Virus record (IMG/VR): IMGVR_UViG_3300046674_000204
Span: 1 to 64,000 of that record
DNA length: 64,000 nt
Source: a virus
Reading direction: 5' to 3' (one strand)
Position 1 is the stretch's first letter. Every line of letters begins with the position of its first letter. The position numbers and the translations under genes were made by a program. Positions 7,265-64,000 of this stretch are shown here, one piece after another. The notes below the pieces were generated by a model. That model searched no databases and was not told where the DNA came from. It was given only the letters and a program-made list of their open reading frames with translations.

Positions 7265-9201
7265 TACTGGACCAAGATGCTCGCCAGCTCAATTTTTTGC
7301 ACTGCCTGACCATCGAGATACCAGAACGAAATCGGCGGGCTCTGTCTGGCCTGACGGACCTGTGGGGTGGCATCCTTGACTTGCAGATACCAACCCTGGA
7401 GCTGAAGGACGTCGCTGATCTTGGTGCCGGCCGAGGAATTGACTTCCGCGACCTGCGCGTTGGAAAGCGTGACGCCGACGCGGATTGCTCCGAAATTCAG
7501 AGCCGCATTGATCGGATCGGCACAAGCCGCCTTGATCAGGGCATAACCAGCCGTGTTGTATGGAATGGAGTTCACGTTCACCAGAAGCTCCATCAATGCC
7601 AATTGCAGAGCATTGTTGAGCCAGATCTGGTTGACGTAGCTGTCCAGCCACTGGAACGAGCCAGACACGCTGCCGGTCTGGAATTCGAGGAACTGCTGGT
7701 TCGCCGTCGCATAGGCACCGTAGAAGTTATAGCCGTTGGCGATGAGGTTGTTGGCAACTGTCGCCGTGGTGACATCGGCCACCAAGCCATCCTGGCCACG
7801 GAAAGCGAAGGTGATCCGGCCATTCGTAGCGTCGAAGTCGATCGAGGCGGCTGTTCCGCAGACGAAAGCAGCCTTGTCGTTCGGACCCCATACCGCCGCA
7901 GTGCCGTTGAGATTGGCCGCATCGATGATGTTGCTGAAGCTCGAGGTGGCATCATTGCTTTCGGTCGGGGTGACGTCCTGATCCCAAGCCACGTAGCACC
8001 AGCGCTTGTTCTGATCATTGGTCCATTCGGCAAAGGCCTGTTTCTGGACGCTTCCTGATCCGTCATCCGGGTCAAAGATAGTCATGAACGTCGCCCAGTT
8101 CTGGGTGATCTGAGTGATGTCGGTCATGAAGGCGGCTGGAACGGATGCTGCCGCACCTTGAGACAGAATTGCGCCGGTTGCCTGGGTGAGGAAGATCAGG
8201 GCGGCGAGCGTACCGGTGGCGAAGGCAATGGTCGAAGACGATCCACGGACACCAGACGTGACGACGAACCCGCCGGAGACGGTGTCATAGCTGACGTCCA
8301 GACCCGAGCCGGTGGCGTTCAGAGTTCCGCTCGTGACGGTCTGGGTTGTCTGAACGAAATAGGTCCCGAGCAGGCCTGTGCCTGTTCCGAGGCCGGTAAT
8401 TATCGTGCCTGCCGCCGTGGTGCCACCAGAAAGGGTTTGCCCGACCGAGAGAGTACCAGAGGCAACAGCGGTGACGGTCAGTGTGCCATAGGAGGCAGTG
8501 ATGGTCTCACTGACGACGACCTGCGTCTTCGACACGGCATAGCTGCCAATGCCGCCCGTGGTCCCATCGATCTGGGAATCGATCTGTGTCCCGGCCGTGA
8601 CGCCAGTGCCAGCGATAATCGCACCCGGCACCAGCGTTCCAGACGATACGGCGGTGACATACATCACGTTGCCGGCGATGGAAGCCGTAACCGAGGCCGT
8701 TCCTGCGGCGATGGACCCGGTGAAGGTCGCCGCGGCCGGAAGGCTGGTATTCAGGCCGGTCTTGATCAGTGCGGCGGCAGCGGAATAGCTGGTGGCACTG
8801 GACAGATTGATACTTGCCGCGCTGAAGGTATAGCCATCGACCACGACCGAGAGCGACCCGCTCAAACCCTGTAGCTGAGGAATGGTCAGCCCGTTGACCG
8901 CGCCACCACGAAGGTAAGCCGCGACCGCCGCCGAGTTGTATTGCGCGAATAGGATCGTGCTCGGCTTCTGCGTCGAATTGTTGAAGCCGTCGAAATAGAC
9001 GTTCGCGATCTCAACTTCTGCGGCCGATGGGCCGAAGTAGTCAGAGACCGAGACGCCATCATTGGGGAACGAAAGCACCTGGCCGACAGGAACACGGGTG
9101 TTCTGGGTCAGGATCAATCCGTTCAGGACAAGCGCGCTTCCACCGGCACTGAGCACGTTCGGAATTACAGAAACAAGTTGTGAGGCTGGGATCGTGGTCA
9201 A
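7264..9201 (-). CDS. Tail sheath protein (DUF3383 type)
   Basis: Contractile sheath protein, 645 residues from a TTG at 9201. The start is set by a GAAAGGA ribosome binding site, a TTGA overlap with the upstream gene stop, and the family N-terminus [19 protein letters not shown] right after it; a longer reading to 9267 would only add sequence from the endonuclease gene. The C-terminal third, with WCYVAWDQD and [13 protein letters not shown], is typical of DUF3383 sheaths. An insert of about 125 residues (roughly residues 170-295) holds two copies of an Ig-like module that recurs in three other virion proteins here. Confidence 0.88.
8317..8694 (-). repeat. Ig-like module, two tandem copies inside the sheath gene
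   Basis: Encodes two units of the pattern V-TAV-SGTL-VGQ-x-x-x-G-x-x-GT-x-I-...-GTGTG-x-GTY-V. Same module as at 10377-10571, 10695-10889, 16535-16930 and 63403-63600. Confidence 0.8.
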
Positions 9202-10037
9202 GTTGATGATCCTTTCAGAAGAGAATCGTTCACGACGACGTAGGCCAAGTGGGCAGCCACGGGGCAATCGAAGACGCCGATGTTGATGTGTTTGCCAGAA
9301 AATTTGGTTCTGGCTCGAAACTTCCCTTGGTGTCTTACGACGCCTTTCAACCCCAACCTGTTGTTGGATTGGGGGTTGAGATTTACTCTGTGAGCTACGC
9401 TCTTCTTCTCAAGCGTTTCTGGACTATCAGTCATGCCGGTCTTGGATTTGTTCCCAAGAGACGCCACGCTCAGTTTCACGCGTGTTTGGTCGCTCGGGGA
9501 TATCCCGCGCTTTGAATTCCCAATGCTGATGCAATGAGCCTCGCTCAGCTTGACGCCGATCTTCTTGATGGAGATCTTTCCACGCGTTTCGTCTGAAACA
9601 GCATGCCCCATCCCACTAAGACTGATGTTTTGTTTATGCTCTTCTGAAAGGACTTTCCCAGAATGAGCCTTGCTCATCAAAATGAGAGATTCAGGCTTAT
9701 GCTTCTTCCCCTTAAGTGGCGGGGTGGATCCTTTTTGGCCTTCACGCCCGGCCATCCGAGCTACTTCGTATTGCCATGACGAAATCATCGCCTTGCGGTT
9801 CCCTATCATACAACCGAGAGCCTTGAGCATCTTCTTGCGATCGATGCCTTCAGTGCACTGCGTCAGTAGCCAATGAGCGAGGAAATGCTTGCGCAGCGTC
9901 AGCCGAACCAAGTTCGACTTCTCATTTGTTCCGCCCACAGAGCGGGGAATTCTGTGGTGCTTTTCTGTGACGCCAGACACGTCGTCTTTCGCCGTTACCC
10001 CCAGGTACCAGCGGTAATACTTGTTCTCGATAAACAT
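9198..10037 (-). CDS. HNH endonuclease with NUMOD3 and AP2-like domains
   Basis: A 279-residue homing-type endonuclease. Residues 25-60 form the HNH core ([12 protein letters not shown] then N-x-V-x-L and HFLAHW). The middle carries several NUMOD3-like DNA-binding repeats ([46 protein letters not shown]). The end (about 225-275) resembles an AP2 domain ([20 protein letters not shown]). It lies between the tail terminator and sheath genes, and its TGA overlaps the sheath TTG start. Likely a free-standing mobile gene rather than a virion part. Confidence 0.85.
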
Positions 10038-10043
10038 GAGGCC

Positions 10044-10976
10044 CTAGGCTGGATATTCAGCATCGACATCGATCACATCGACATCGAGTTCATCGGCGAA
10101 CTGCTGCGGAGCACGGATGACCTGGTTCGATTGCATCACTGCATCAACCACCCATCGGTTTTCGGTTTGGTTATTCTCGTTTTCGAACGGCAACTGCCGA
10201 GGATCACTCACATAAAGCGGCGTCACATCGAACCCGGATGCCTTGAAGGCTTGCACCGCGAAATCATCACGGAACAAGGTAGAGATAGTCTGCGCGTTCT
10301 CGGAGCTATTCGGGCCATGCACATCCAACTGGACCGTGACCCGAGTAGGCTGAAGGAATATCTGGCCACCAGACGCCATCTTGCGGGACGGCACGGTCTG
10401 AGACGGCGTAACAATGTATGTCCCTACCCCGCCGGTTCCGGAGCCAAGAGCAACCACTTTCGTAAGAGATGCGACCCCAATCCCGAAGACGATCTGCCCG
10501 ACGGCAAGCGTCCCCGATGCTACGGCGGAAACCGTCATGGCAGTTGCAGAGATGTCCGCGGTAAACGAGACGTCCTCGTAGGTATCCACGTTCGTTTCGA
10601 GACGTGTCTGCATGAACGGCGTCATAGTCACGAAATCGGGCACAGAAGGCTCAGGAACGCGATTGTCTTGGGCCTGAACACATTCCACGCCGGTATACAT
10701 CTTCGCGCCGGCGAGCGTCTGTGAGGCGCTGAGCGTATACGTTCCGACACCACCCGTCCCGGTCCCGAAGGCCGTAATCATCACGCCTGGAACAACACCT
10801 TCCCCTAGGACTGCGTCTCCGATTGACAGAGCCCCTTGAGTGATTGCTGAGACAGTCAGTGTCGTGCCGGCGATGGTCCCGGTGAACACGGCGTTGCCGC
10901 TCGGCAGAACAGCCAAGATGAACGATCTCAACGCAGTCAGGATATTCGACTGCGTCGGCGATGGGGAGAAATTCAC
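10044..10976 (-). CDS. Tail terminator / neck protein (LIC_12616-like) with two Ig-like inserts
   Basis: A 310-residue protein whose core matches the phage LIC_12616/neck terminator family: VQAQDNRVPEP, VTMTPFMQTRLETN, TRVTVQLDVHGPNS, FRDDFAVQAF, GFDVTPLYVSDPRQLPF. That core is interrupted twice, near residues 30-94 and 136-200, by the Ig-like module found in other virion proteins here, so the protein is longer than its relatives. It would cap the tube and join tail to head. It overlaps the upstream gene by an ATGA. Confidence 0.8.
   Translation of the reverse strand: MNFSPSPTQSNILTALRSFILAVLPSGNAVFTGTIAGTTLTVSAITQGALSIGDAVLGEGVVPGVMITAFGTGTGGVGTYTLSASQTLAGAKMYTGVECVQAQDNRVPEPSVPDFVTMTPFMQTRLETNVDTYEDVSFTADISATAMTVSAVASGTLAVGQIVFGIGVASLTKVVALGSGTGGVGTYIVTPSQTVPSRKMASGGQIFLQPTRVTVQLDVHGPNSSENAQTISTLFRDDFAVQAFKASGFDVTPLYVSDPRQLPFENENNQTENRWVVDAVMQSNQVIRAPQQFADELDVDVIDVDAEYPA
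10377..10571 (-). repeat. Ig-like module, second copy in tail terminator gene
   Basis: Encodes about 65 residues: [20 protein letters not shown], then VGQ, GSGTGGVGTYIV and QTVPS. One of seven copies in the window. Confidence 0.8.
10695..10889 (-). repeat. Ig-like module, first copy in tail terminator gene
   Basis: Encodes about 65 residues: VFTGTIAGTTLTVSAITQG, then SIGDAV, GTGTGGVGTYTLS and QTLAG. It interrupts the family core just after residue 29. Confidence 0.8.
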
Positions 10977-11254
10977 CCTGCGATCCTGTAGTAGGAGATA
11001 TTCAGAACGGGCGATCCAGTCTCGGCAATGAACTGTATTTTAGAGAGAGGGCCGGAGTATTGCAGCGGCTCCCCTGTATTGGAGAGATGCATGCCAATCG
11101 AAGCCGTCGGAGCCGTGCCGTCATCCCTCCAACGCACCGCTGCCGTATCGACTGCGATAACCGCGAAATTGGCGCCAACTGGAACCGTCAAAGCCGTTGC
11201 CCCCGATAGGATAATCTGCTGATAGCCGAGCGCTGCAAACTGTTGGGCGAACAT
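10973..11254 (-). CDS. Small beta-rich virion protein, unknown
   Basis: A 93-residue protein without recognised motif, predicted mostly beta from its alternating hydrophobic pattern (LTVPVGANFAVIAVD). It lies between the neck gene and a connector-region gene, overlapping the neck gene start by ATGA, so it probably is a minor head-neck or decoration component. Function not recognised. Confidence 0.75.
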   Translation of the reverse strand: MFAQQFAALGYQQIILSGATALTVPVGANFAVIAVDTAAVRWRDDGTAPTASIGMHLSNTGEPLQYSGPLSKIQFIAETGSPVLNISYYRIAG

Positions 11255-11266
11255 TGGTTTTCCTCG

Positions 11267-11644
11267 TTATGGATTTTGCAAGACGCAGGCACACTTCGAC
11301 CAATCGGGCCAAGTTTCGAGCACTTGGACCACGAGCCAATCACCGACATTCGGGCCATCGGCCAGAGTGACGATGTCGCCGCCCTTGGTTCTGGTTCTCA
11401 GCACGCCCTGGATATCGCCGTAGAAATAGATGCCTCGAGCCGCGCCGTTCAGGTTGAGGCCATCGACCTGATGCAGATCTTTGAAGGTCATCGCCTGGAC
11501 TTGAGCCATCCCAGTCACGGTGGCGTATGTCGGTGTGCGCGAGCCGTCTGGATTGGTGACGGAACCGGTGCTCACCTGCATCGTGCAAGGAACATGGGGG
11601 TTAACCGTTCCGATGGCTCCAGATACCACGGCATGAAGATTCAT
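11267..11644 (-). CDS. Head-tail connector region protein, unknown
   Basis: A 125-residue protein in the connector cluster. It has a TVNPHVPCTMQVSTG opening and a DGPNVGDWLVVQVLETWPDW stretch that resembles small minor capsid or head-closure proteins of Bcep781-like myoviruses. No catalytic motif or membrane segment. Its position between a head fibre-like gene and the neck genes suggests a stopper or adaptor role, which is inference. Confidence 0.7.
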   Translation of the reverse strand: MNLHAVVSGAIGTVNPHVPCTMQVSTGSVTNPDGSRTPTYATVTGMAQVQAMTFKDLHQVDGLNLNGAARGIYFYGDIQGVLRTRTKGGDIVTLADGPNVGDWLVVQVLETWPDWSKCACVLQNP

Positions 11645-11658
11645 CGGGTTTCCATCCT

Positions 11659-12216
11659 TTAGGGAGAGAGCACGCCCGCCGCCTGTAGCAGCGTAATAAG
11701 ATCAGCAACGGTCGCGGTCAAAGGATCGGCGGGTGCCCCCTGCTGAAGGACGCCGCCACGAAGGGATGCGGTTGGCGTCGCAAGGGTTACCGAGATCGAG
11801 GCGTTTGCAGCACCTGTGAACGCGGCACTGGTTCCGGTAGCCCCATCCGTCAGCGAGAAAGTCCGTCCCGTAGCAAGAGCCGTTGCCGTTGCTGCATTGC
11901 CGGTAATTGTCGTCTGCGCCGGGTGAACGTGGTCACCTCTTGCATATGTCGTGGCCACACCGGGTGCTGCAGTGCCAGCCACAACCGGGTTTGTAGAGGA
12001 TGCCGCAGGGATGGTAGTCGTGTCTGGAAGAGCGCTGACATCGGCTGCGTCAAGCACGACAACGCCGGTCTGCCCATTCACCGAGGCCACCGAACCAGCA
12101 CTGACACCGATGACCGCCTGCGCAGCGGCTTGCGACGATGCCTTGAGAAGACCGACGCCAATTTCAGAAATCGGAAGATCACCGGTCTGGGGCGAGAAAA
12201 TGACTGTGCCAGGCAT
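11659..12216 (-). CDS. Head fibre-like protein
   Basis: A 185-residue fibrous protein. It has an early VNGQTGVVVLDAADV collagen/fibre-type segment, the DHVHP motif common in phage fibres near residue 95, Ala/Thr-rich middle, and a C-terminal ASLRGGVLQQGAP...ADLITLLQ element that resembles the trimeric head fibre family (phi29 gp8.5-like). Encoded among head-neck genes, so it may decorate the capsid or neck rather than the tail. Confidence 0.65.
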   Translation of the reverse strand: MPGTVIFSPQTGDLPISEIGVGLLKASSQAAAQAVIGVSAGSVASVNGQTGVVVLDAADVSALPDTTTIPAASSTNPVVAGTAAPGVATTYARGDHVHPAQTTITGNAATATALATGRTFSLTDGATGTSAAFTGAANASISVTLATPTASLRGGVLQQGAPADPLTATVADLITLLQAAGVLSP

Positions 12217-12232
12217 GGGTTATCCCTTCATT

Positions 12233-12769
12233 CTAAGATTTGACTTCGTAGTCGATGCTGTTGAGCAGTGTCCCGGAGTCCACCAAGGGCTTTGTTGAAA
12301 CACCTTCAGTGCTCTCGCCAGACGCGACACGACGAGCTGCCTCGCCAACGGTCTTCCCTGACACCACAAGATCAGGGTCCTCAGCCCGCATCTTGCGGAG
12401 CATGAGCGTGACTTGGCTAAGCGGCGGGGCATAAGTATCGATTATGGACTGTTGAAGCTGTCCTTGAATGGCCGCTCCGGTCTGCCCAAGCGTCTTTGCT
12501 GCGTCATAGCCATTGGCAACCAAGAGATTGCCGACAGCTTCCGGCCATTCGGGGCTTTTCGCCTCGATCATCGTCCGAAAGAACGGCCTTGGTGGAATTC
12601 CGGCCTTCGGGGCTCCGAATTCCTGGATGGCGGCAATATTGGCGACGTTTTCGCCCGAAGGATAAGTGGCGTTCTCGAGGAACCCGACGTCCACCTCAGA
12701 GGCTTTCGAAACCTTCTGAGCAATCTCAGCCAGCGCCTTTGCGAGTTTGTCTCCACCAGTGATTTTCAA
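12233..12769 (-). CDS. Neck / tail completion protein, HK97 gp10-like
   Basis: A 178-residue protein with the pattern of the gp10/virion morphogenesis group: helical start, VGFLENATYPSG, AIQEFG, GIPPRPFFRTMI, and a C-terminal LVDSGTLLNSIDYEV. These proteins complete the neck at the head-tail junction. It overlaps the upstream GIY-YIG gene stop by ATGA. Confidence 0.78.
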   Translation of the reverse strand: MKITGGDKLAKALAEIAQKVSKASEVDVGFLENATYPSGENVANIAAIQEFGAPKAGIPPRPFFRTMIEAKSPEWPEAVGNLLVANGYDAAKTLGQTGAAIQGQLQQSIIDTYAPPLSQVTLMLRKMRAEDPDLVVSGKTVGEAARRVASGESTEGVSTKPLVDSGTLLNSIDYEVKS

Positions 12770-13545
12770 TATCTATCCAATCCATGATCAGCCCGATTTT
12801 TGGCTCTAGTTGCCTGCCGTCTGGCGATCTCTTCGGGAGATTTTGGCCCTTTTGCTTTGAAGATGTAATTCTTTTTAAAGGTGGCTATCTGCCGCTGCTT
12901 TTGCTCTTCAGGGATGGGCTGTCCTTTGCGTACTTCGCGTGCCTTTTCAAGGTTAGCCAGTATCTCTGGTGTCACCTCTTTGCTTTTAAGTGTGCGGGAT
13001 ATGCGGGCGCGATTTTCTGGGTCTTCCATGACCTTTTTGGTGGCCATTGCGACAGCTATACGGTTGGCCGGATCGGCCATGTATTTTTTCATTCTCTCAG
13101 ATTGAGCCAAACGTTGCTCTTCGGACTGTTTTCTACCTGTTAGGGCGTCAGATATCTTCCGGCATCGTTCTGGAGTAAACACACTTCCTGATGCACCTTC
13201 TCCGCCGTCAGTGAGATTGCAGAGCGTTCCCATCCCAAGGTCACGGCGGCCAAAAGCTGCTATCAAATTCTTTTCGTACTCGAATGCATCAGTTTCGATG
13301 TCGTACCATGCGACGATCTCAACAATTGGTTCTAGCTTCAATCCTCGTATCTTTGCGAGGATTCTGCCGAACAATGGATTGTGCGGGTGTTGCGTCCCAT
13401 GCTTGTGCTGGTCCGCTCTACGATGCTTTGCGGTTCCCTTCCCGACGTAGATCGGGCACCCCTTCTTTTTGGGTCTGGGATCACGGTAGACATAAACGTA
13501 AAACTTGCCTGCATCCGCAAAAAGCGGCAGGGTGTTATCAGCCAT
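12766..13545 (-). CDS. GIY-YIG homing endonuclease with NUMOD3-like tail
   Basis: A 259-residue protein from the ATG at 13545, chosen because GAGG lies 8 bases upstream; a longer reading from a TTG at 13641 has no such site. Residues 12-100 form a GIY-YIG nuclease (FYVYVYRDP, PIYVGKGTAKHR, E-K-N-L-I-A-A-FG, LCNLTDGGEG). The rest is Lys/Arg-rich with NUMOD3-like repeats (TGRKQSEEQRLAQSERMKKY). It is placed between head genes and looks like a free-standing homing gene. Confidence 0.85.
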   Translation of the reverse strand: MADNTLPLFADAGKFYVYVYRDPRPKKKGCPIYVGKGTAKHRRADQHKHGTQHPHNPLFGRILAKIRGLKLEPIVEIVAWYDIETDAFEYEKNLIAAFGRRDLGMGTLCNLTDGGEGASGSVFTPERCRKISDALTGRKQSEEQRLAQSERMKKYMADPANRIAVAMATKKVMEDPENRARISRTLKSKEVTPEILANLEKAREVRKGQPIPEEQKQRQIATFKKNYIFKAKGPKSPEEIARRQATRAKNRADHGLDRY

Positions 13546-16444: not shown

Positions 16445-17383
16445 TTAGCCCTGTAGCCATGAGCTGATCTTCATGAGTTCGCCCGGGAGAGCGGACGAGC
16501 GGACGACGAACTTGGTTTCGACATTGGTCGCCCCAGTGATCGCCGTAGACGCCACAACGGTGTTGTTGTTGACGATGTATGTCCCAGCACCACCAGTGCC
16601 GGTCCCAAGCGCAGTGATGGCCGTGCCAGCAACGACGTTGGTACCAGAAAGGGTCTGACCGACGCCGAACACGCCGACAACAGTGCCGCCGACCGTGAGC
16701 GTGCCGTAAGTGCCGCTGATCGTGGTAGACGCCACGGTCTGCTCGGGAATGCTGACGGCGTACGTTCCAATCCCACCGGTCGTACCGGAGAGCTGGGAAA
16801 CGACCTGAGTGCCGCTTGCCACGCTGGTACCGGAGATCGTGCCGCCGGGGACAACCGTGCCAGAACCAACGGCGGAAACCGTCAGGACATTGTCAGCGAT
16901 CGAACCGGTTACCGAGAACGTCGATGCGGCAATCGAGCTTGCTGAACCAGAGGCACCGCTCGGGGCACCCGTAGCAGCCGCGGTGAACTTGCCGTCGGCG
17001 AAGTTGGCATATGCCTTCATACCGGGGGTGGCTTGGGTCGCGCCGTTGTTCTTCACCCAGAAGTCGCCATTGTCGAACACGGTGACCGGGAAGCCGGCCG
17101 GAACGATCATGGTCGATTCCTGGAGATACTGCTGGATAAGGCCCTGTTGTTCGCGATGGGCGATACCAGCGATAGGGCCAGAGCCAAAGGCATTGGCGAC
17201 AGCCGGCGCACCGTCATCGTCAATGAAAGAGCTGGTCAGCCAAATGGCACGGGCGATAATGAATGAAGCACCGGCGATAAGGCCACCGGGACCGGCGAGA
17301 ACCACGGCACGCGGATTGGTGCTGGCAAAGTCGCCTTCAACCGCCGGAGCCTGGTTATAGTAAATCTGCTGCTGGAATCCCAT
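16445..17383 (-). CDS. Capsid cement / stabilising protein with Ig-like module
   Basis: A 312-residue protein directly before the major capsid gene. The first 135 residues resemble phage structural cement proteins (YYNQAPAVEGDFASTNPR, GAGL-type glycine segments, VTVFDNGDFWVKN). Residues about 152-283 are a tandem pair of the Ig-like module seen also in sheath, terminator and baseplate J, and the last 30 residues (KFVVRSSALPGELMKISSW) return to the cement fold. It would bind the capsid surface. The insert makes it roughly twice the usual length. Confidence 0.78.
   Translation of the reverse strand: MGFQQQIYYNQAPAVEGDFASTNPRAVVLAGPGGLIAGASFIIARAIWLTSSFIDDDGAPAVANAFGSGPIAGIAHREQQGLIQQYLQESTMIVPAGFPVTVFDNGDFWVKNNGATQATPGMKAYANFADGKFTAAATGAPSGASGSASSIAASTFSVTGSIADNVLTVSAVGSGTVVPGGTISGTSVASGTQVVSQLSGTTGGIGTYAVSIPEQTVASTTISGTYGTLTVGGTVVGVFGVGQTLSGTNVVAGTAITALGTGTGGAGTYIVNNNTVVASTAITGATNVETKFVVRSSALPGELMKISSWLQG
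16535..16930 (-). repeat. Ig-like module, two tandem copies in the cement gene
   Basis: Encodes STFSVTGSIADNVLTVSAVG... and a second unit with GVGQTLSGTNVVAGTAITA and GTGTGGAGTYIV. Very close in wording to the sheath pair. Confidence 0.8.
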
Positions 17384-18074: not shown

Positions 18075-19871
18075 TTAGAGCGTCTTGACCGTGTGCGACT
18101 TTGCTTCGGGGTAGAGTTCGAAGAAGGACGATGCCCCCTTGGCATCCATGGCAACCTTCGTGGTGCGCTGGATGTTGGCGCCGGGAAGAGGCTGGGCCTT
18201 GAGGATCGCCTTGAGAGCAGGCAATTCCTTGACGTCGGAAACATCGACGTTCATGGACGTCAGGGTCGAGCGGTAGATCGCGTCGGCGCTATCCATAGCC
18301 ACCACCTTGCCGACGTATGGCCGAACGGCTTCTTCGGCATCGCGGATGGAATTCAGGCGGGCGATGGTAGACTTTTCCGCTTGGCTGGCAGCCGTGCGAG
18401 CTACCGATACAAGGGCGGCGTCCATAGCCTTCTTGGAAACCATTTCTTCCTTGTCCTCATCTTCGGCCTTTTTGTCGTCATCCTCTTCGGATTCGTCCTC
18501 GGCCTTCTTGTCCTTGTCTTCTTCCTCGTCCATGGCTTCCTGGTCGTCTTCCATGTCCTCGTCTTCCGCCGCATTCTTCGGAAGGTCTTCATCGATCGCC
18601 AGAAGCTTCTTGACGACGTCTTCGATCTTGGCATCTTGCGCCAAGACGCCAGTGAGCGCTGCGGTTAGAGCCGCCGACCTGGCTGCATGTGCTGCGATTT
18701 TCTTAGCCATATCAGGCTCCTTTTCGCGTTTGATTGCTTCATCACCAACAACGACATCGGGACCGGCTCGGCCCTCAACGACAAGGGCGAGGTGATTGCC
18801 GCCTATGTTTCTCATGACGCCATCGAACCTCTGTCCGTTGGCGATGCCTGGGGTCATGTCGGCCTCATAGCGATAACCGCATGACAATTCTTTCTGCTTG
18901 TCGGCCTCGATCAGATCGATCGCTTCCCCGTCCCAGATGTTGAGCGATGCCATCAGGTACGGAGCCTTGAACCCGACATTGCTCCCGATCGATCCCACCA
19001 CGATCTCCCGCGGATGTTCTTCCGCACTGACCGGCTTGTGGATGATGAGGATAGGCTTGCCGGCGAAAGACTGGGCCGCCATGGCAAGCTCTTCTGGGTC
19101 ACGGTACATCTGATAGATGCGATCAGGATCAAGACCCATTGCCGATGCGTTCGGGATCTCCCTACCGTAATAGGGGCAGATATTCGCCTTCGATATCGGC
19201 GTCTCTTCCACGAACATGTGGCCGTCAGCGTCGATGCGGCGAACACTGCGGTCCATCGCAATCTTATCCATCGCGCCCATGATCTGGCTTTCCTGCTCTT
19301 CGGCATTCACCCAATTGACAAATCCGATGCGCAACATCGCCCAATCCTCAGGCGTCAGTTCGGCATCGATCCCGAGCCTATTGGTCAGAGTTTCCATCAC
19401 GGCTGGGTGCATCGGTCCTGGCAGCATGTTCAGAGGGCACCAGGCATAGCCGGTATGCTCGTCGTTGAGCTGCGGCACGAACTTCGAAGGAACCGACTGT
19501 GCGAAGGTATGAAACGCCTTTCCTGTCGGCGTCACGCGGCTGTCAAGCAGATTCATCGCAGTCGCACTCTCCGGGATGAGCATTCCCATCTCTTCGTGCG
19601 CTTCGCGGTCGGCGGTCTGTTCAGGTGTCTCGCCTTCTTCGCCGCCACCGCCAGGCAAAGCCCAATGGCCGGCATAATTTGTCTCGGTCGATGCTCTGCG
19701 CAGAAGCAGCACGTCACCATCGGGCGCAACGTAGAGGATGCCGGCGGCATGCCCGTTGATCGCATCGGCAGTGATGAACTCTTCGCCTACGGCCTTAGGG
19801 ATGCCCAACTGGGACTTTCCTTCAGCGGCAGCATACATAGCGCGCCTTTGAGCCTCACTGGTTGCCGGCAA
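18075..19871 (-). CDS. Nudix hydrolase - prohead protease (DUF2213) - acidic scaffold fusion
   Basis: About 598 residues. The N-terminal part holds a complete Nudix box near residue 70-95 (G-x5-E-x7-REAHEEMGM), so it may hydrolyse nucleoside-diphosphate-linked compounds. From about residue 195 it resembles DUF2213 capsid maturation proteases (FVEETPISKANICPYYGREI, PILIIHKPVSAEEHP, ELSCGYRY, GVMRNIGGNHLALVVEGRAG). The last 200 residues include a long Glu/Asp/Lys stretch typical of scaffold. I place the start at a TTG with AAGGA upstream, before PATSEAQRRAMYAAAEGKS; a GTG at 19925 is the alternative. It precedes the cement and capsid genes as a protease/scaffold should. Confidence 0.82.
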   Translation of the reverse strand: MPATSEAQRRAMYAAAEGKSQLGIPKAVGEEFITADAINGHAAGILYVAPDGDVLLLRRASTETNYAGHWALPGGGGEEGETPEQTADREAHEEMGMLIPESATAMNLLDSRVTPTGKAFHTFAQSVPSKFVPQLNDEHTGYAWCPLNMLPGPMHPAVMETLTNRLGIDAELTPEDWAMLRIGFVNWVNAEEQESQIMGAMDKIAMDRSVRRIDADGHMFVEETPISKANICPYYGREIPNASAMGLDPDRIYQMYRDPEELAMAAQSFAGKPILIIHKPVSAEEHPREIVVGSIGSNVGFKAPYLMASLNIWDGEAIDLIEADKQKELSCGYRYEADMTPGIANGQRFDGVMRNIGGNHLALVVEGRAGPDVVVGDEAIKREKEPDMAKKIAAHAARSAALTAALTGVLAQDAKIEDVVKKLLAIDEDLPKNAAEDEDMEDDQEAMDEEEDKDKKAEDESEEDDDKKAEDEDKEEMVSKKAMDAALVSVARTAASQAEKSTIARLNSIRDAEEAVRPYVGKVVAMDSADAIYRSTLTSMNVDVSDVKELPALKAILKAQPLPGANIQRTTKVAMDAKGASSFFELYPEAKSHTVKTL

Positions 19872-20109
19872 CTTCGTCTTCCTTCTTGAGGCCGATCCAA
19901 TCACCACCGCGACCCGGATTGTCACAAACCACTACCAGCCGAGGATCAGCGTCGATCGCTTTGGCAAGCACCTCATACTGTTCATCGACGGTTGCCCCTG
20001 GGATCTGATACCCCATGTTCGTGAAGCCATGCAGGATCATGCCGAGCGTGCGAGATCCATGACGCGCAACGAGTTCGTGCGCGAAGTCTTGAAGATGCGA
20101 CGGCATCAC
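19855..20109 (-). CDS. Small protein, unknown
   Basis: An 84-residue protein between the Mu F-like gene and the Nudix/protease fusion, which it overlaps slightly. It reads HLQDFAHELVARHGSRTLGM and ends with VVVCDNPGRGGDWIGLKK; no membrane segment or known motif. Probably expressed with the head genes. Function not recognised. Confidence 0.65.
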   Translation of the reverse strand: MMPSHLQDFAHELVARHGSRTLGMILHGFTNMGYQIPGATVDEQYEVLAKAIDADPRLVVVCDNPGRGGDWIGLKKEDEVAGNQ

Positions 20110-20122
20110 TCACTCCTGATTT

Positions 20123-20947
20123 TCAGCTAAAGCCTTTGATGACGGGCCGGCCAACACATTTGCAGTTGATCAGCTCACCAGGTTGGATCTTGTGACCAAC
20201 CGCAGGGTCATACCAACCCTCTGAAATCTTGTATCGTGTCTGCTCGCGTCCGGCCTTCAGATGCGTGGGCCTAGGCTCTCGCCCCCCACCGCTATGCACC
20301 CATACAGCCTCATCCAGCCCCAACTCGATCTGGCGCGCCCGTGAGAGCGATGCTGTGGCCTTATTGTTCTGGTCTCTGCTGATCAAGGCAGCGCGTCTCC
20401 GCGTCACCCCCAGCCGCTCCTGTAGTTCCTTCGAGACAACCCCGAGGTCGCGCCCGTTCTGGACGCCACGCATCACGATCCCCTCTACCTGAGAGAGATA
20501 TTGCTGCGGAATGCTTTTGATCAGGGCGACATTCTCATGGACCGTCGCATCGATCACGTCTCGCATGGCCGGCGTAATCTGAAAGGACACGGTCCAGCCG
20601 CCATCCTTCATGATCTTTTTCATTGCGGCAGTTGATCGCTTCTCCACCGACTGGGTGAAGTGCTCGGCCAACTTGGTCGACATCTCATCGAACCGCTTCA
20701 GCCAGCGCTTAGACAGGTCTTTCATCGATCGGCGCAGCGCGTCGGCCGGCGTCTCATCTTCCGCGATGATTCTCGGCGTGTTCTGGCGATAGGTTGCGGT
20801 CAGCCAGTATTCGACCGAAGCAGCCATCTCTCGGATCAGCGCATCAAGGCGGCGGCGATATTCAGCCTCAATCCCGGCATTTGGATGGATCGGCCTCAGG
20901 ACGGTCTCTGCGGCCTTTGGCGTCTTCCGCCTCATCCTGCTTGCCAA
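20123..20947 (-). CDS. Head morphogenesis protein (Mu F / SPP1 gp7-like)
   Basis: A 274-residue minor head protein. The C-terminal half has the family core: LGVTRRRAALISRDQNNKAT, a long helix, then DEAVWVHSGGGREPRPTHLK and GELINCKCVGRPVI. Such proteins are packaged with the portal and aid head assembly or DNA exit. The start is taken as a TTG at 20947 with GGAG upstream. It follows the portal gene after two very small genes. Confidence 0.82.
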   Translation of the reverse strand: MASRMRRKTPKAAETVLRPIHPNAGIEAEYRRRLDALIREMAASVEYWLTATYRQNTPRIIAEDETPADALRRSMKDLSKRWLKRFDEMSTKLAEHFTQSVEKRSTAAMKKIMKDGGWTVSFQITPAMRDVIDATVHENVALIKSIPQQYLSQVEGIVMRGVQNGRDLGVVSKELQERLGVTRRRAALISRDQNNKATASLSRARQIELGLDEAVWVHSGGGREPRPTHLKAGREQTRYKISEGWYDPAVGHKIQPGELINCKCVGRPVIKGFS

Positions 20948-21041
20948 CGGGCTTCTCCGGCTTCTCTAGGCTCTCTGGTATGGGTTCGCGTGCCTGTGGC
21001 TCGCGTGCATTTATCACATCCCATAAGTCGAGTTTGATCAC
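20868..21041 (-). CDS. Possible tiny ORF coupled by GTGA overlap
   Basis: A 57-codon frame from a GTG that overlaps the preceding stop as GTGA. The product (IKLDLWDVINAREPQ then EPIPESLEKPEKPVGK) is charged and likely unstructured, and its last third overlaps the Mu F-like gene. The coupling overlap is the main support; it may be non-coding. Confidence 0.35.
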   Translation of the reverse strand: MIKLDLWDVINAREPQAREPIPESLEKPEKPVGKQDEAEDAKGRRDRPEADPSKCRD

Positions 21042-21220
21042 GTCGTCGGCGCCTCGTTGTCGGAAGAGTCGTTATCTTCGGTTTGGGGCGGCGTGACAAC
21101 CCCAGCCGCGTTTACAAACTGCTCGAGGCTGAGAACGGCTCGGATGATGGTATCCGGATCGTCATGGGTTCGGGAGCAGAGCTCAAGAAGGCGAAGGCGG
21201 ACTTCTACGACATCCATCAC
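21038..21220 (-). CDS. Small helical protein after portal, unknown
   Basis: A 60-residue protein whose ATG overlaps the portal stop (ATGA). First 40 residues are helical (VVEVRLRLLELCSR, TIIRAVLSLEQFVNA), the tail is acidic. No family recognised; the tight coupling to the portal gene supports expression. Confidence 0.6.
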   Translation of the reverse strand: MMDVVEVRLRLLELCSRTHDDPDTIIRAVLSLEQFVNAAGVVTPPQTEDNDSSDNEAPTT

Positions 21221-22794
21221 GCGGCTTCCTTGTCAGTTATCTCTTCGGCCTTGAACATCGATCCGACAGCACTCCCGGCTCCCTTGGGCACCAGACCCTC
21301 CTCTTCCTCTTCGAGAAGGTCAGGAACGTCTTCGACATCGATTGAGGAGTAATCGGAGCCTGGATCATTCGCGACACGCTTGCGGGATTCGTCGGGGGCA
21401 AGCACGCCGGAGTCGATCAGGATCTGGTCAGTCTCCGCCTTCAGCTTCTCGACTTCGGCCTCGCTCTTCTCATCAAGCGAGAACAACGGCTTGAACTGGA
21501 AATCGATAGTGTCGTCTATCTCACCCCACAGGGAAAGCATGACGAGACCCATCAACCGGCGGATCGGGTTGCGGAACAGATGCTCCTGGTAAGCATGGAT
21601 GTAATCGTAGAACACCCGCATCTGATCTTCCGATGATGCGTTCAGACCAGCAGGCTGGATGCCGAGAAGCTTGACGGTCGGAATATGGCTTACCGAGGCC
21701 ATGTGCTCTTGTGCCTGCGCCTGCAACCCTTCCAGGCCGGCGAGAGAAGCCGACACATTCTGGAACTCCTCGCTGTCCTTATCGATCATCATAAGCCCGC
21801 GGTTATCCCGCAGGTTATTGAACAGTTCAGCCCGTTTGAACAACTGCTGACCATCGGCCTGCAACGATTCTCCAAGGTTCGTGGAAAGCACGAAGACCGA
21901 GAAGGCCGAGATAATATCGTTGACCGACTGACGCGTTTGCAGCCAGTTGTCCACGTATGGCTTGGCCATCTGGGACAGTGACAGGCCGCCGAACGAATAG
22001 GTCGGCTTCAAAAGGTCGGGGACCTCGCGACCAATCAACGTGATGAGCCGCGACGAGTGAACGATCTTCGACTGGACATACCAGCTATCCGGCCGATACC
22101 AGTTATCTTTCAACGGGTCGTTCGAATTGTAGCTCGTCGGATAGCACCAGACTGCCTCAACGGTACGTAGAGATTCGATGGGTTTCTTGCTGATCTTCGT
22201 CTTGCTGAGCTCGTCCCAGCCGTCACCAATCGACTTCTGAAGCTCAGCGGTGTCATCTGTATCGCCGGTATCAATGTAGATGTGCCCGCGGCCGAAGAAC
22301 CCGTCTTGCTGGGTGGCCCGAGCGAACATATCTGAAACCTTCAGACGCTTGAATTCCGCCTCGATCTCCTTGAGACGATCTGTCTTCATGTCATCGTCAT
22401 CGGCCGAAGATGTGAATTCGATCCACTCCCTCGTCATTTCCGTTGCGATGGTCTCGGAAATAACCCGGTATTCCGGACGTTGGGCAAGTTCGCTCAGGTA
22501 GGCATAGCCTAGGAACGTGATGCCTTCGGTCCAAAACCCACTGATTGCAAAGCTATTGGCCCACTCGTTATTGCCGGCCAGATCCGAATCCATCGCCATC
22601 CCCGCATCGCCAGAAGGCAGAACGCCGGGAGGGGCGGCGGGGATGCTGAACACAGGCACGGTACGAACTTCACCGGGCCGAAACCTCGAGCTAGCCACGG
22701 CGCCATCGGGGACACGGAAGGGCTTGCGCTCTTCAGCCTTGGTCTCTTCAACCTTGGCCTCCTTGCGCCTAAACCAGTCACGAATGCCCATCAA
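21217..22794 (-). CDS. Portal protein (DUF1073-type)
   Basis: A 525-residue portal protein. Marks are YRVISETIATEMTREWIE in the N-terminal clip region, DGFFGRGHIYIDTGD, DPLKDNWYRPDSWYVQ, SRLITLIGREVPDLLKP, and a late SEDQMRVFYDYIHAYQEHLFRN helix that builds the channel. The C-terminus is Glu-rich. It follows the large terminase with no gap and precedes the head protein genes. The dodecameric portal forms the DNA entry vertex. Confidence 0.9.
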   Translation of the reverse strand: MMGIRDWFRRKEAKVEETKAEERKPFRVPDGAVASSRFRPGEVRTVPVFSIPAAPPGVLPSGDAGMAMDSDLAGNNEWANSFAISGFWTEGITFLGYAYLSELAQRPEYRVISETIATEMTREWIEFTSSADDDDMKTDRLKEIEAEFKRLKVSDMFARATQQDGFFGRGHIYIDTGDTDDTAELQKSIGDGWDELSKTKISKKPIESLRTVEAVWCYPTSYNSNDPLKDNWYRPDSWYVQSKIVHSSRLITLIGREVPDLLKPTYSFGGLSLSQMAKPYVDNWLQTRQSVNDIISAFSVFVLSTNLGESLQADGQQLFKRAELFNNLRDNRGLMMIDKDSEEFQNVSASLAGLEGLQAQAQEHMASVSHIPTVKLLGIQPAGLNASSEDQMRVFYDYIHAYQEHLFRNPIRRLMGLVMLSLWGEIDDTIDFQFKPLFSLDEKSEAEVEKLKAETDQILIDSGVLAPDESRKRVANDPGSDYSSIDVEDVPDLLEEEEEGLVPKGAGSAVGSMFKAEEITDKEAA

Positions 22795-60270: not shown

Positions 60271-60804
60271 CTAGTTGTTCGAAGACCACGCGAAGACGTC
60301 GATCTCCTCCGTCTTGGTGATCGTGCCAGAGATGATCTGCTGATCGATCGCACATTCAGCGGCAAAGCTCGCCTGGACGTGGGCCGCGACTGCATTGGCC
60401 AAGGTCTTAACCTGAGCGGCAGTCAACTCGATAAATCCGCTGGCTGTCTTGAATTGCACCATCACACCGGAGTTGGCGTCTACGTAGTTATAGGCTCCTG
60501 TGATGAGCGCTTGGCTGACCCGATCGGTCATGACAGACATGCCGTTGATGACAATGCCACCCGTTTCGATGGCGTAGCGTTTCGCCGCCGCATAGGCGCT
60601 TAGATCATCAGTAGTGATCGCGGGAACAACAGGGGCTGAGAATTTCTTCCCGTCATAGGTATATCCCTGCTTTACGGACGTCCCACAAGCTTGAAACATC
60701 GCGGCAATGTTAGCCTGAAAGCAATCGGTGATTTTGGTATCGTCAGGGAATGACGCTATCTCAACAACAATGCCATCAACAATACGTGCGAAAGTTTGAG
60801 TCAT
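60271..60804 (-). CDS. Tail fibre assembly-like protein (DUF4376)
   Basis: 177 residues. The C-terminal 110 residues match the DUF4376 pattern: LSAYAAAKRYAIETGGIVIN, GMSVMTDRVSQALITGAYNY, VQFKTASGFIELTAAQVKTL. The N-terminus (FARIVDGIVVEIASFPDDTK) is typical of proteins encoded next to tail fibres. Probably a fibre chaperone or a fibre-tip part. Confidence 0.78.
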   Translation of the reverse strand: MTQTFARIVDGIVVEIASFPDDTKITDCFQANIAAMFQACGTSVKQGYTYDGKKFSAPVVPAITTDDLSAYAAAKRYAIETGGIVINGMSVMTDRVSQALITGAYNYVDANSGVMVQFKTASGFIELTAAQVKTLANAVAAHVQASFAAECAIDQQIISGTITKTEEIDVFAWSSNN

Positions 60805-60813
60805 GGAGGTTCC

Positions 60814-61878: not shown

Positions 61879-61889
61879 CTGATTTTTTC

Positions 61890-62639
61890 CTAAAGGAGGA
61901 CGACCGAAGCGGCTACGCCGGTCGATTTTGGCAAGACACCAGATTGCTGGACAATCGCCAGTTCAACCGGCGAAAGTGGGAAGGTGAAGACGTATTCCAT
62001 GACCATCGATTGGACAGTCTGCCCGTTATAGAAAGTGCCTTGGTTAAACCCCAAAGCGTTCTGGGATTCCTGAAATCCGAACCAGCTACCACCTTGAAAC
62101 CCATCCGTGACGTAGCAATTCCCCCTGTTGGGAAAGAGCGTCATCAAGATGCGATTGATGGCCGGGATAGATCCGTCTGTGATATTGGCTGCTGCCTTGG
62201 CAAGGATGAGTTGGCGATAGGATTGATCCGACAAGGCATAGTTGCTGGTGAGCGCAGAACCGCTGTAGAAAGCTCCCTGCCCGAACGTGAAGGCTCCGGG
62301 GAGAGATTCTTCGAAGCCGAACCAGTTGCCTATCTCGACTTGGAGGACGCGGTTGACGCCCACAATCCTGCCCCAAATGTTCAAACCTTCGCCTACGGCG
62401 GTATCGATATTCCAGATCGCATCGAAAAAAGCGTCAAAGTTTTTGGTTTGATCGAGATATTCGAAGATATTCTCAATTAATCGGATCAGGATCGGCGAAT
62501 TTGCATATTGACTCAGCACTGTCGACCAAATTGAAAATGACGGGATAGTCCCGATTTGGCTTACACCAATCTCAAAAATCCCGATGCCATTCGACCCAGG
62601 GGCGGGACCCCCAGGGTACGGCGGACCCGTGTCTGTCAT
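61890..62639 (-). CDS. Tail protein, DUF2612 family (baseplate, gpI-like)
   Basis: 249 residues. Core motifs WSTVLSQYANSPILIRLIEN, DAIWNIDTAVGEGLNIWGRI, YRQLILAKAAANITDGSIPA, RILMTLFPNRGNCYVTDG are those of DUF2612. It connects baseplate J to fibres, comparable with gpI. It includes a repeated NWFGFEES / SWFGFQES element. Separated from baseplate J by an HNH gene. Confidence 0.83.
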   Translation of the reverse strand: MTDTGPPYPGGPAPGSNGIGIFEIGVSQIGTIPSFSIWSTVLSQYANSPILIRLIENIFEYLDQTKNFDAFFDAIWNIDTAVGEGLNIWGRIVGVNRVLQVEIGNWFGFEESLPGAFTFGQGAFYSGSALTSNYALSDQSYRQLILAKAAANITDGSIPAINRILMTLFPNRGNCYVTDGFQGGSWFGFQESQNALGFNQGTFYNGQTVQSMVMEYVFTFPLSPVELAIVQQSGVLPKSTGVAASVVLL

Positions 62640-63200
62640 TTAAGCCCTCGGAACTGGCTGGAATGGATGGAATTCTATTTTGGCCTTCAAATAGGCCGCG
62701 CTGGCTTCGGCGGGATCATCGAACAATCCAAGATGGACATAACGTCCTTGGAAGTTTATTCGTGCTCCCCATTTTGAGGCTGCCTTTGACCAACTGACGC
62801 CAATGAAGCCGCTCTTGTTGTTTCTCTTCATTCGAGCGTTTTGCATATTTTCGGCATGCGTGGCGGGTCTAAGATTTGAAATCACATCGCCTTTGTCGAC
62901 GCCATCTCGATGATCAATTTCATCGCTTGGCCAGTCTCCAGTTTTTATCAACCACGCGATCCGATGTCGGAAATGTAAAATATCATCGATACGAAGAACC
63001 CAATAACCATCTCCACGGTCGCACCCCGCAACCTTTCCGGCACATTTGCTGTTCCAATTCCGGCAACGCCATTCCTTTGGGCGTTTCCCATCCTTGAACA
63101 TATCAGGCGTCCTAGCCTTCCACGTCAGCACTCCGGTTTCCGGATTGTAATCGAGCAGTTGCCGCGCATATTCTGCGCTGATATCGTGGCGCTTAGCCAT
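62640..63200 (-). CDS. HNH endonuclease with AP2 domain
   Basis: 186 residues from the ATG at 63200. HNH core RHRIAWLIKTGDWPSDEIDH, RDGVDKGDVISNLRPATHAE followed by N-x-x-N-x-R; then an AP2-like end (GFIGVSWSKAASKWGARINF, RYVHLGLFDDPAEASAAYLK). It splits baseplate J and DUF2612 genes, as a free-standing homing gene. Confidence 0.87.
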   Translation of the reverse strand: MAKRHDISAEYARQLLDYNPETGVLTWKARTPDMFKDGKRPKEWRCRNWNSKCAGKVAGCDRGDGYWVLRIDDILHFRHRIAWLIKTGDWPSDEIDHRDGVDKGDVISNLRPATHAENMQNARMKRNNKSGFIGVSWSKAASKWGARINFQGRYVHLGLFDDPAEASAAYLKAKIEFHPFQPVPRA

Positions 63201-63309
63201 AGGTCCGGTTCCTTCGGATTTGTGGTTAGAAGCCGTCAAATCCTGCAAGAAATGACGGCTTCGCTAATCTAGCACAAAAGTAGAACAAGACAAAGATTCT
63301 GCAGCGTTT

Positions 63310-64000
63310 TCAGCTCAGCGTTACGATGATGTCTTCAGCGGATACAGTCGGGACCTGATCGATCCGAACATCGATATCGAATAGATTAGCTACTGCGGAC
63401 CGCATGGCTTCTGGGGCTATCGTCTGGCTATTGCTAACCGCATAGGTTCCCGTCCCACCGGTTCCGGTGCCAAGCGCAGTTATTGTAGTCCCAACAACAA
63501 GATTTCCGGTAATATCGGAGATCGTCTGACCCACAGCCAGTGCTCCCGAGGCGACAGCCGAGACGGTCATCGTTGTGCCTGAGATCGACGCGGTGAATGA
63601 TGCAGATGCATTGTTTGTCGAGCCGATTTCAATCGAAACAAGCTGGACCCAAGACCCGAGCGCCGCGATCGGCGCATAGAAACGGCTGGCATACAGCGTT
63701 GTACCTATTTTTGCTCTGGCCCCCCCATCCCCGCCGGCAAAAGCATTGATGATGGCATTCTGGATCTGTACCGCCGCATCTGCCGGAACCAAGGAACTGT
63801 TCGTGATGTTCACAGCAAAGAGGATTGGAAGCGGATTTGGAATTTCAAACTGGACGGTATAGGTCGGATACGGCGGCACATATCCTGTGCTAGTATCTTG
63901 GACCTGCACAGACGTGTTGCCGTTGTATGCACATCCCGGCGCTTTCTTTGACCAGATGGCCTGAGCTACGGCAGATGCATCGCCCCCAACGACGGCGACA
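63310..64000 (-). CDS. Baseplate J-like protein, C-terminal part (partial)
   Basis: The frame is open to the right edge; visible from [20 protein letters not shown], a baseplate J element, through [20 protein letters not shown] and a C-terminal helical end. An Ig-like module copy is inserted at 63403-63600. It is the wedge protein that links gp25 to the tail fibres. The N-terminal half lies outside; the start is probably the ATG at base 14 on the far side of the genome junction. Confidence 0.82.
63403..63600 (-). repeat. Ig-like module in baseplate J
   Basis: Encodes [20 protein letters not shown], then [27 protein letters not shown] and SQTIAPE. Closest in wording to the copies in the tail terminator gene. 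Confidence 0.8.

Follow-up and report, generated by a model that had tools for sequence, protein, structure and literature searches.

Four virion genes carry seven copies of one module

We analyzed a 64,000-nt stretch of the virus record IMGVR_UViG_3300046674_000204 (the window). Four virion genes in this window, all on the minus strand, together carry seven copies of one 62–64-residue unit. The tail sheath gene (7264–9267) matches PF11863 (DUF3383, 1e-123), and its predicted structure matches the sheaths of Pa193, E217 and XM1 at Z 30–34 (Pa193 34.0, E217 33.4); family match and fold both identify a DUF3383 contractile-tail sheath. The neck/tail terminator (gateway) gene (10044–10976) matches PF23961 (Phage_tail_terminator_9, 2.2e-21) and NF047498 (1e-15). 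Its model (pLDDT 92.9) matches the gateway proteins of Pa193 (Z 16.0) and E217 (Z 14.0), so that fold as well as family (PF23961, LIC_12616) establishes its identity. The capsid cement, or minor capsid, gene (16445–17383) belongs to the family of E217 gp24/Pam3 gp6 and XM1 gp53, with matches to XM1_gp53 (PF23982, 2.8e-24), Phage_cement (PF22758, 2e-12) and phrog_2122; a phmmer search of PDB sequences found no relative of it. The baseplate J gene (63310–64000), identified by PF04865 (1.9e-13), also matches phrog_6 (4.3e-57, L002:1396–2844), and its frame runs past the window to the contig end at 64763.

The sheath has two modules in tandem, S1 (8509–8697) and S2 (8329–8514). The terminator has two separate modules, T22 (copy 1, 10707–10892) and T62 (copy 2, 10386–10571). 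A second tandem pair, C1 (16727–16918) and C2 (16547–16732), lies near the C-terminus of the cement protein, and a single module, J378 (63412–63603), lies near the C-terminus of baseplate J. All are on the minus strand, with limits set by profile. The complete record (64,763 bases), when searched, gave exactly these seven matches (E 3.2e-15 to 9.3e-8), all inside open frames, and scanning the open frames of the window with profiles returned the identical set, confirming a sequence-only reading that had placed seven units in four virion proteins at these positions. An alignment of seven 66-residue stretches has nine invariant columns, and the most conserved positions of the module are mostly glycine. 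The DNA pattern for GTGTGG-x-GTY occurs three times; none of 100 dinucleotide-preserving shuffles contains it. Judged by their sequences, all seven segments belong to a single module family.

Modules are inserted at conserved sites

In the same reading, the module looked inserted and cut the terminator core in two places. Both points stand: the carrier families do not in themselves include the module, module-free carriers are common, and there are terminators that lack one or both inserts. Comparison with these relatives shows clean insertion edges in the terminator. Sheaths in relatives have zero, one, two or three modules, counts that are not natural frequencies, since they come from the best 80 sheaths per list and favor module-bearing ones.

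In module-bearing relatives, the sites are largely those of the window. Almost all mapped sheath copies (233 of 236) fall in one short region, and the sheath site is the same in 86 of 88 relatives. Agreement is complete for the cement protein (62/62) and for T62 (75/75), and baseplate J has its module at the window's site in 56 of 65 proteins. Relatives thus largely carry six of the seven copies at the same places, a pattern that the earlier reading had named, for equally diverged copies, as speaking for an ancestral module and against spread. The seventh, T22, is an in-frame insertion shared by a minority, 11 of the 105 genomes that bear modules.

Structural models suggest how a protein can accommodate such an insertion. 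The terminator model has strands at residues 78–94, 130–154 and 185–220, with modules at 29–90 and 136–197; the sheath model has strands at 178–209 and 311–319, with modules at 191–253 and 252–313. At both outer edges in the sheath, and at three of the four edges in the terminator, a carrier strand runs on across the boundary with the module. The exception is the first T22 edge, where a strand starts with the module. At the level of these models, the module therefore resembles a cap placed over a hairpin. By our reading of the alignment, the sheath insert corresponds to about residues 150–160 of the Pa193/E217 sheath. This point lies inside residues 91–210, which passages of the Pa193 preprint describe as a flexible domain.

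The fold is probably not Ig-like

The unit had been described as Ig-like, a claim that our analysis does not bear out. Neither the module alone (69 aa) nor a tandem pair (126 aa) matched any Pfam family at E ≤ 1 or any NCBIfam family. A J fragment with its module gave one sub-threshold Pfam match (0.0063), to a nucleoporin FG repeat region; its 15.5 bits fall short of the 32.3-bit cut-off, and we take it to be low-complexity noise. No Ig structure is among the 50 matches listed for the terminator model. The Ig-like reading thus finds no Pfam match in sequence, and an Ig fold is only disfavored, because absence from a list of structures does not amount to exclusion.

Structural comparison of the whole-terminator model aligned residues 28–96 with EF-Tu, aIF2gamma and similar proteins over 67–68 residues at 2.1–2.5 Å (Z 6.3–7.0, where Z under 8 can reflect a common arrangement). 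The range matched in these factors is presumably domain 2. Homology to EF-Tu domain 2 is unsupported by profile comparison: hhalign of 31 modules against 15 domain-2 (GTP_EFTU_D2) sequences gave a probability of 6.6% over 14 columns. Weak Foldseek matches of the terminator (E 0.007 to 0.25, mostly of low probability) include aerolysin-type toxins, beta-trefoil lectins and ligand-gated-channel beta-sandwich domains. A further structural match is 8eci, from Arthrobacter phage Bridgette, with 33% identity and Z 6.6 over 60 residues; when PDB sequences were searched with the module profile at E ≤ 10, this chain was not among the matches. Giant-virus collagen-repeat proteins also give structural matches. 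Based on the models, the fold is probably not Ig-like, and is most likely a closed all-beta barrel of the translation-factor (RIFT-like) type rather than an Ig sandwich.

Modules group by site rather than by genome

A further claim was that the module is spreading within this genome, in which case copies in one genome should be more alike than copies in relatives. We compared 488 module copies from the phage and its relatives, after short profile matches and duplicate proteins had been dropped. Mean identity is 50.0% for copies at the same site in different genomes. For copies at other sites it is 43.2% within one genome and 42.7% between genomes. The nearest neighbor is from the same site for 382 of the 488 copies, and from another site in the same genome for three. 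On a tree of 448 modules (40 with rare labels were left out), an 11-state site label requires at least 85 changes, compared with 416 for a 103-state genome label. Modules group by site across phages, not by genome, and recent spread is not borne out.

Similarity between genes follows position within the tandem pairs. The mean is 51% between S1 and C1 and 47% between S2 and C2, against 41–42% for the crossed pairs. The longest between-gene DNA match in the window, 182 bp at 66%, is between sheath S1 and cement C1. In two relatives, the sheath and J genes share module DNA: those of L196 share a 437-bp block with 68% DNA identity (62% over 174 residues), and those of L220 share 110 bp at 75%. Identities of 68–75% in module DNA indicate that gene-to-gene copying does happen. 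When matched and mismatched genome pairs were compared for 26 site pairs, the differences were −0.4 to +5.8 points, with 24 of the 26 under 3; differences this small speak against recent concerted evolution. A small same-genome excess was detected at uncorrected p<0.01 in seven of the 26 site pairs; it amounts, for instance, to +2.7 points for S2–C2 and to +5.8 points when terminator copy 2 is compared with modules in other proteins.

An Ig-like adhesion domain that is now spreading between virion genes by recombination between copies would account for the copying in these two relatives and for the same-genome excess. It is disfavored by the clustering by site, by other-site identities that are nearly equal within and between genomes, by the window's longest between-gene match of 182 bp at 66%, and by the lack of an Ig-type Pfam match to the unit alone. 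We regard it as highly unlikely. We conclude instead that the module is an old family trait of the lineage and not a recent outbreak in this genome, because module-bearing relatives carry it at the same places. As judged from the copying between sheath and J in L196 and L220 and from the small within-genome excess, slow, occasional spread is real.

The module occurs in many other carriers

We scanned more widely with a fixed DNA pattern derived from the module's most conserved motif. At least 120 stretches match the pattern, and all 80 of the scanned stretches listed contain the module, a figure that speaks to the specificity of the pattern rather than to the abundance of the module. Outside the four families, 77 of 84 module-bearing open frames were scanned for families (those of L255, L281, L282, L283, L299, L304 and L306 were left out for size). 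Overall, carriers comprise cement, collar-like, terminator, sheath, J, tail-fiber, head-closure, SU10-type adaptor and capsid proteins, and the module also occurs beside a GDSL esterase domain. Prophages of Mesorhizobium sp. WSM3862 (L074), Methylobacterium variabile DSM 16961 (L076) and Paraburkholderia elongata 5N (L151) bear it as well, the last of them in seven copies. Two families, phrog_21413 and phrog_38233, contain the module as a segment of about 60–75 positions in profiles 595 and 896 positions long; they are annotated as unknown function and tail fiber, and neither models the module itself.

With only the module as query, blast found nothing among annotated phages, probably because the low-complexity filter masks it. 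The whole terminator matched 49 records, 46 of them through the terminator core. Its module part matched a tail fiber of phiLM21, one phage present in two records (H6, H7). The remaining record (H47), from an uncultured phage and named "portal protein", matched through a 39-residue piece of module. Among the papers listed in literature searches, none was seen to describe the module's sequence family. Taken at the level of sequence matches, this is a promiscuous virion module.

Composition and selection

Modules are nearly free of charge: K, R, D and E make up 2.8% of residues in the 488 modules, compared with 12.0% in 291 carrier cores. A second set gave 2.4% in 131 modules and 12.3% in carriers. 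Aromatic residues are also few (4.2% in modules and 8.4% in carriers), and tryptophan occurs in 49 of the 488. Against relative L008, dN/dS is 0 to 0.15 for six of the seven modules, with T62 the exception at 0.57; against L009 and L013, many dS values approach or exceed saturation. In 51 of 72 phages for which all four proteins were seen, the module is in all four or in none. The mean in 2000 shuffles was 10.1 and the maximum 21, a comparison that ignores shared ancestry and includes only 3 to 6 independent pairs. The low dN/dS, the low charge across the family and the co-occurrence in four proteins together suggest that the module is under selection.

These three observations also speak against a near-selfish protein insertion that is tolerated at hairpin tips, spreads by chance recombination and brings the phage little benefit. 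Such an insertion would fit the promiscuity of the module among unrelated carriers and its varying copy number, but we consider it very unlikely.

Could the module instead be a genuine lectin that binds carbohydrate at a defined site? Tail-fiber proteins and GDSL esterase domains act at cell surfaces, and the module is found in the former and beside the latter. Ligand sites of lectins are usually built on aromatic platforms, however, and the modules have few aromatic residues, little tryptophan and mostly glycine at their most conserved positions. Hence, a lectin seems unlikely.

We also doubt that the module is a stabilizing clamp, which would touch neighboring subunits on head and sheath and stiffen the particle with no role in adhesion. 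Its presence in cement and sheath, for which a review of tail sheaths (PMC9230969) cites a proposed stabilizing role of added domains, is consistent with a clamp, as is its presence in head-closure and adaptor proteins. However, low-copy proteins carry it too, such as the terminator, whose E217 counterpart is present in six copies. Moreover, related sheaths vary from no modules to three, and E217 and Pa193 assemble without any.

Discussion

Together, our observations are probably best explained as a whole by an old plug-in barrel, inherited site by site, that gives the virion an outward coat of low charge. A small all-beta domain would have been inserted at beta-hairpins or near the C-termini of virion proteins. 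Its entry into the four genes would be ancient in this lineage, with sheath and cement sharing one ordered two-module block. Inheritance would since have been mainly site by site under purifying selection, and later insertions, losses and gene-to-gene copying would be rare. We infer that the copies face outward on head, neck, sheath and baseplate, and present a common surface that is nearly charge-free and rich in Ser, Thr and Gly. This surface may make many weak contacts with hydrated surfaces, such as cell-surface or extracellular polysaccharide, and/or a neutral coat may prevent electrostatic sticking elsewhere. Weak contact with surfaces, or neutral coating, would then be the function of the module.

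Discussions of surface domains in phages usually treat them as Ig-like add-ons. Fraser et al. (2006), as quoted in the sections of PMC9230969 that we cite, proposed that Ig-like domains on phage virions aid infection through weak contacts with cell-surface carbohydrate. Like those Ig-like domains, as presented in the same sections, the module is a small beta domain added to many unrelated virion proteins; unlike them, it has no Pfam match at E ≤ 1 and its model resembles a translation-factor barrel. It differs from the extra tail-sheath domains known from those sections in being common to the head, neck and baseplate of one phage. The model suggests for it the broad fold class of the RIFT-related domains that Smug et al. 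(2023, PMC10684548) describe in structural proteins of phages. In the portions of that study cited here, RIFT is a broad class, and the sequence family, insertion sites and make-up reported here are not described. We found no profile link between the module and the RIFT barrel of translation-factor domain 2. The phage shares sheath, terminator or cement families with the solved contractile phages E217, Pa193, XM1 and Pam3, and the sheath and terminator chains of the first three align to the carrier cores. The module profile has no match better than chance among PDB chains.

What is the significance of a non-Ig, nearly uncharged domain that is found on the head, neck, sheath and baseplate of one phage, and in many other carrier families? 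Capping of beta-hairpins suggests a simple structural rule for the movement of domains between unrelated virion proteins. Tentatively, and with the odds somewhat against it, we propose that non-Ig barrels of this unnamed, nearly uncharged family serve tailed phages generally as a coat module, which moves among capsid, neck, sheath, baseplate and fiber genes as hairpin-cap cassettes under selection that acts on the particle as a whole. If so, a phage would tend to wear the module on several structures or on none, and the structural matches in giant-virus collagen-repeat proteins would extend the same solution beyond phages. Related phages with the module in four proteins or in none offer a natural comparison for relating virion surface chemistry to adsorption and persistence.

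Copies of the module in the phage

A search of the whole 64,763-base contig found seven copies of the 62–64-residue module, with E from 3.2e-15 to 9.3e-8; nothing else matched at E ≤ 10. This bears out the sequence-only reading of seven copies in four virion proteins, at the positions it named. The DUF3383 tail sheath has a tandem pair (S1 and S2), the capsid cement protein has another close to its C-terminus (C1 and C2), the neck/tail terminator has two copies at separate positions, and baseplate J has one. The other copies share 38–58% protein identity with terminator copy 2. DNA likeness is low, the longest match between genes being 182 bp at 66%, between sheath and cement.

The contig looks circularly permuted: J (63310-64763) reaches its end, a baseplate hub gp41-like gene lies near its start (1-1902), and sheath and J are ~7.2 kb apart when measured across the ends, a spacing close to that of the relative L012. 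Phage tail lysozyme (PF18013, 4.1e-19) is a domain of a large tail protein (3311-5494, minus strand) that also weakly matches tape-measure proteins.

Inheritance by site and exchange between genes

Relatives were fetched with the terminator, sheath and cement, and extra ones through a diverse sheath alignment (the best 80 from bacterial genomes and the best 80 from viral contigs); these best-80 lists are biased to close, module-bearing relatives. An iterated module profile was run over the window and 222 loci, after which carriers and insertion sites were assigned. Among module-bearing proteins of relatives, 86 of 88 sheaths have a module at the window's site, as do all 62 cements, all 75 terminators (at the copy 2 site) and 56 of 65 J proteins. 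Four distinct insertion places were mapped in J and two in the terminator.

For 488 modules from 105 genomes, with duplicates removed, mean identity is 50.0% for same-site pairs from different genomes; for other-site pairs it is 43.2% within one genome versus 42.7% between genomes. The nearest neighbour is at the same site for 382 modules (353 in another genome), at another site of another genome for 103, and at another site of the same genome for only three. On a tree of 448 modules, unshuffled counts give at least 85 changes for the site label (11 states) and at least 416 for the genome label (103 states). Across 26 site pairs, a matched-genome test put the differences between -0.4 and +5.8 points; 24 are under 3, and seven pairs reach uncorrected p < 0.01. 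Together, the site-wise clustering and the small matched-genome differences strongly support an old module set that has mostly passed down site by site and exchanged a little. The spread within this genome that was first proposed, if taken as recent, does not agree with copies that group by site across genomes, and copies at other sites of one genome are hardly more alike than those of different genomes.

Terminator copy 1 is an exception to ancestral placement. Alignment with relatives shows it inserted in frame, ~65 residues flanked by '...LPSGNA' and 'GVEV...'; it is present in the four nearest terminators (L008, L009, L154 and L156; 78–94% identity) and absent from the next-nearest (L010, L013, L014 and L047; 68–74%). 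These clean edges, and the two insertion places, uphold the earlier view of the terminator modules as inserted. Six more distant genomes also have a module at the copy 1 place; in two of them, L185 and L205, it resembles modules of other proteins at least as much. Since the copy 1 label also requires at least four changes on the module tree, there may have been more than one insertion into this hairpin.

Sheath and cement share a two-module block, with S1 like C1 (51%) and S2 like C2 (47%), compared to 41–42% for crossed pairs. The proposed spread between virion genes can be seen in relatives. In L196, the sheath (10655-12832) and an enlarged J (18752-21787) have in common a 437-bp stretch at 68% DNA identity (62% over 174 residues) that spans much of a three-module string in both; we read this, from sequence, as a visible case of copying between genes. 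Sheath and J of L220 have 110 bp in common at 75% DNA identity. Directly downstream of the window's J is an HNH_3 (E 1.8e-10) and AP2 endonuclease-type gene (62640-63248, minus strand), and the J module is close to the end of its gene. Where a homing endonuclease adjoins a virion gene, it could favour gene conversion nearby.

Presence in carriers and predicted fold

Carriers occur with and without the module. Counting distinct sequences, fragments included, there are 83, 22, 74 and 3 sheaths with zero to three modules, 64, 8, 48 and 6 cements with zero to three, 86, 66 and 12 terminators with zero to two, and 53, 54, 5, 6 and 2 J proteins with zero to four. On the sheath tree, the minimum number of changes in module presence is 10 across 166 phages for the sheath, 8 across 158 for the terminator, 12 across 116 for cement and 5 across 106 for J. 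The full set of four proteins was seen in 72 phages: 29 of these carry the module in every one, 22 in none and 21 in some. The 51 all-or-none phages compare with a shuffled mean of 10.1 and maximum of 21; the count includes likeness that related phages share by descent, with 3 to 6 independent pairs. Versus the closest relative (L008), six modules have a dN/dS between 0 and 0.15, and terminator copy 2 has 0.57; dS versus L009 and L013 is often near or beyond saturation. A nearly selfish insertion would fit the patchy presence, and we consider it improbable alongside these ratios.

Carrier cores align with the solved sheaths and terminators of the contractile phages E217, Pa193 and XM1. By alignment, the sheath insertion point is at about residues 150–160 of the Pa193/E217 sheath, within the segment (residues 91–210) described as a flexible domain in the Pa193 preprint (PMC11042391). 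In AlphaFold2 models (mean pLDDT 92.9 for terminator, 88.6 for sheath), predicted strands span three of the four edges of the terminator modules (residues 29–90 and 136–197; strands 78–94, 130–154 and 185–220) and both outer edges of the sheath modules (191–253 and 252–313; strands 178–209 and 311–319). At the first edge of terminator copy 1, strand 30–47 starts with the module and does not cross. The module may thus be a barrel capping a hairpin of its carrier.

Terminator residues 28–96 resemble EF-Tu, aIF2gamma and other translation factors (Z 6.3–7.0, 2.1–2.5 Å, 67–68 residues), and the matches listed for this model include terminators and no Ig domain. With Foldseek, the chains under E 0.001 are all from necks or terminators, and assorted beta proteins, mostly of low probability, follow at weaker values. 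Compared as sequence profiles, the module and 15 sequences of translation-factor domain 2 showed no homology (probability 6.6%). Promiscuous Ig-like beta domains on phage virions are already known. In these models, the module is probably barrel-like rather than Ig-like as first described, and no Pfam or NCBIfam model matched the unit alone. An Ig-like domain now spreading would suit the copying in L196 and L220; given the probable fold and the grouping by site, we regard it as very improbable.

Reach beyond the four carriers

A degenerate DNA pattern for GTGTGG-x-GTY, run on viral contigs, matched at least 120 stretches; the module is in an open frame at all 80 pattern loci listed, in 98 ORFs with one to four modules each. 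With the ORFs of four loci from a phylum genome sample there are 102. At E ≤ 1e-4, 11 of these match the cement family, five J and one each sheath and terminator, 18 in all. Family naming covered 77 of the other 84. Pfam (E ≤ 1e-4) gave nine SU10-type adaptors, two phage capsid proteins, one each of lambda-D decoration, tail collar, Pam3 gp18, glycine-rich and phage stabilisation proteins, and GDSL esterase models, with no family for at least 59. PHROGs gave 13 head closure Hc3, two major head proteins and several tail fibres.

Relatives of the phage also have the module in four phrog_1912 head proteins (one scoring 26.6 bits against the E217 collar gp28 model, just below the cut-off of 27), two tail fibres and one esterase-type protein. 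In L010, which lacks an assigned cement gene of the window's family, a head/structural protein of another family (phrog_3645) upstream of the terminator carries it instead (6229-6969). In a Paraburkholderia elongata prophage (L151:3-1337), a module adjoins a GDSL-type esterase domain, and a 3,675-residue open frame (L073:2-11026) has two modules far apart and no match to the four carrier families. Predicted viral structures resembling the models include an HK97 capsid protein (39–44% identity over 78–92 columns) and two collagen-repeat proteins (BFVD A0A1V0SCQ2 and A0A1V0SDM6_2; 21–30%) of Indivirus ILV1, a giant virus. In six bacterial genomes holding relatives, all module matches found are on one contig per genome; in an even phylum sample, at least four of 398 genomes, including the centre genome itself, have a match at E ≤ 1e-8.

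RIFT-related domains occur in many phage structural proteins, and added domains are known in tail sheaths, according to PMC10684548 and PMC9230969, respectively. We found no description of this module family in the literature searched.

Composition and possible function

Lys, Arg, Asp and Glu make up 2.8% of the 488 modules (107 have none) versus 12.0% of 291 carrier cores; in a second set of 131 modules the values are 2.4% and 12.3% for the remainder of the same ORFs. Ser, Thr and Gly make up 48% versus 25%, and aromatic residues are half as frequent as in cores. A lectin with a defined ligand would fit the tail-fibre and esterase carriers, though the few aromatic residues speak against it. 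A stabilising clamp would fit the cement and sheath, though the variable module number in related sheaths speaks against that. We consider each unlikely, and equally so.

The evidence shows or strongly supports one family, with seven copies that are inserted, mainly inherited by site, and selected. We think it probable that the module is an old plug-in barrel with site-wise inheritance; our confidence is slightly lowered by the one edge that no strand crosses and by a small same-genome excess that extends over several site pairs. E217 has 204 sheath subunits (PMC10329688) and Pa193 180 decoration subunits (PMC11042391); by analogy, if copy numbers follow these phages, each particle would carry several hundred modules. 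We tentatively propose, at somewhat less than even likelihood, that the modules face outward as a neutral, hydroxyl-rich coat, which would make many weak contacts with hydrated surfaces while avoiding electrostatic sticking.
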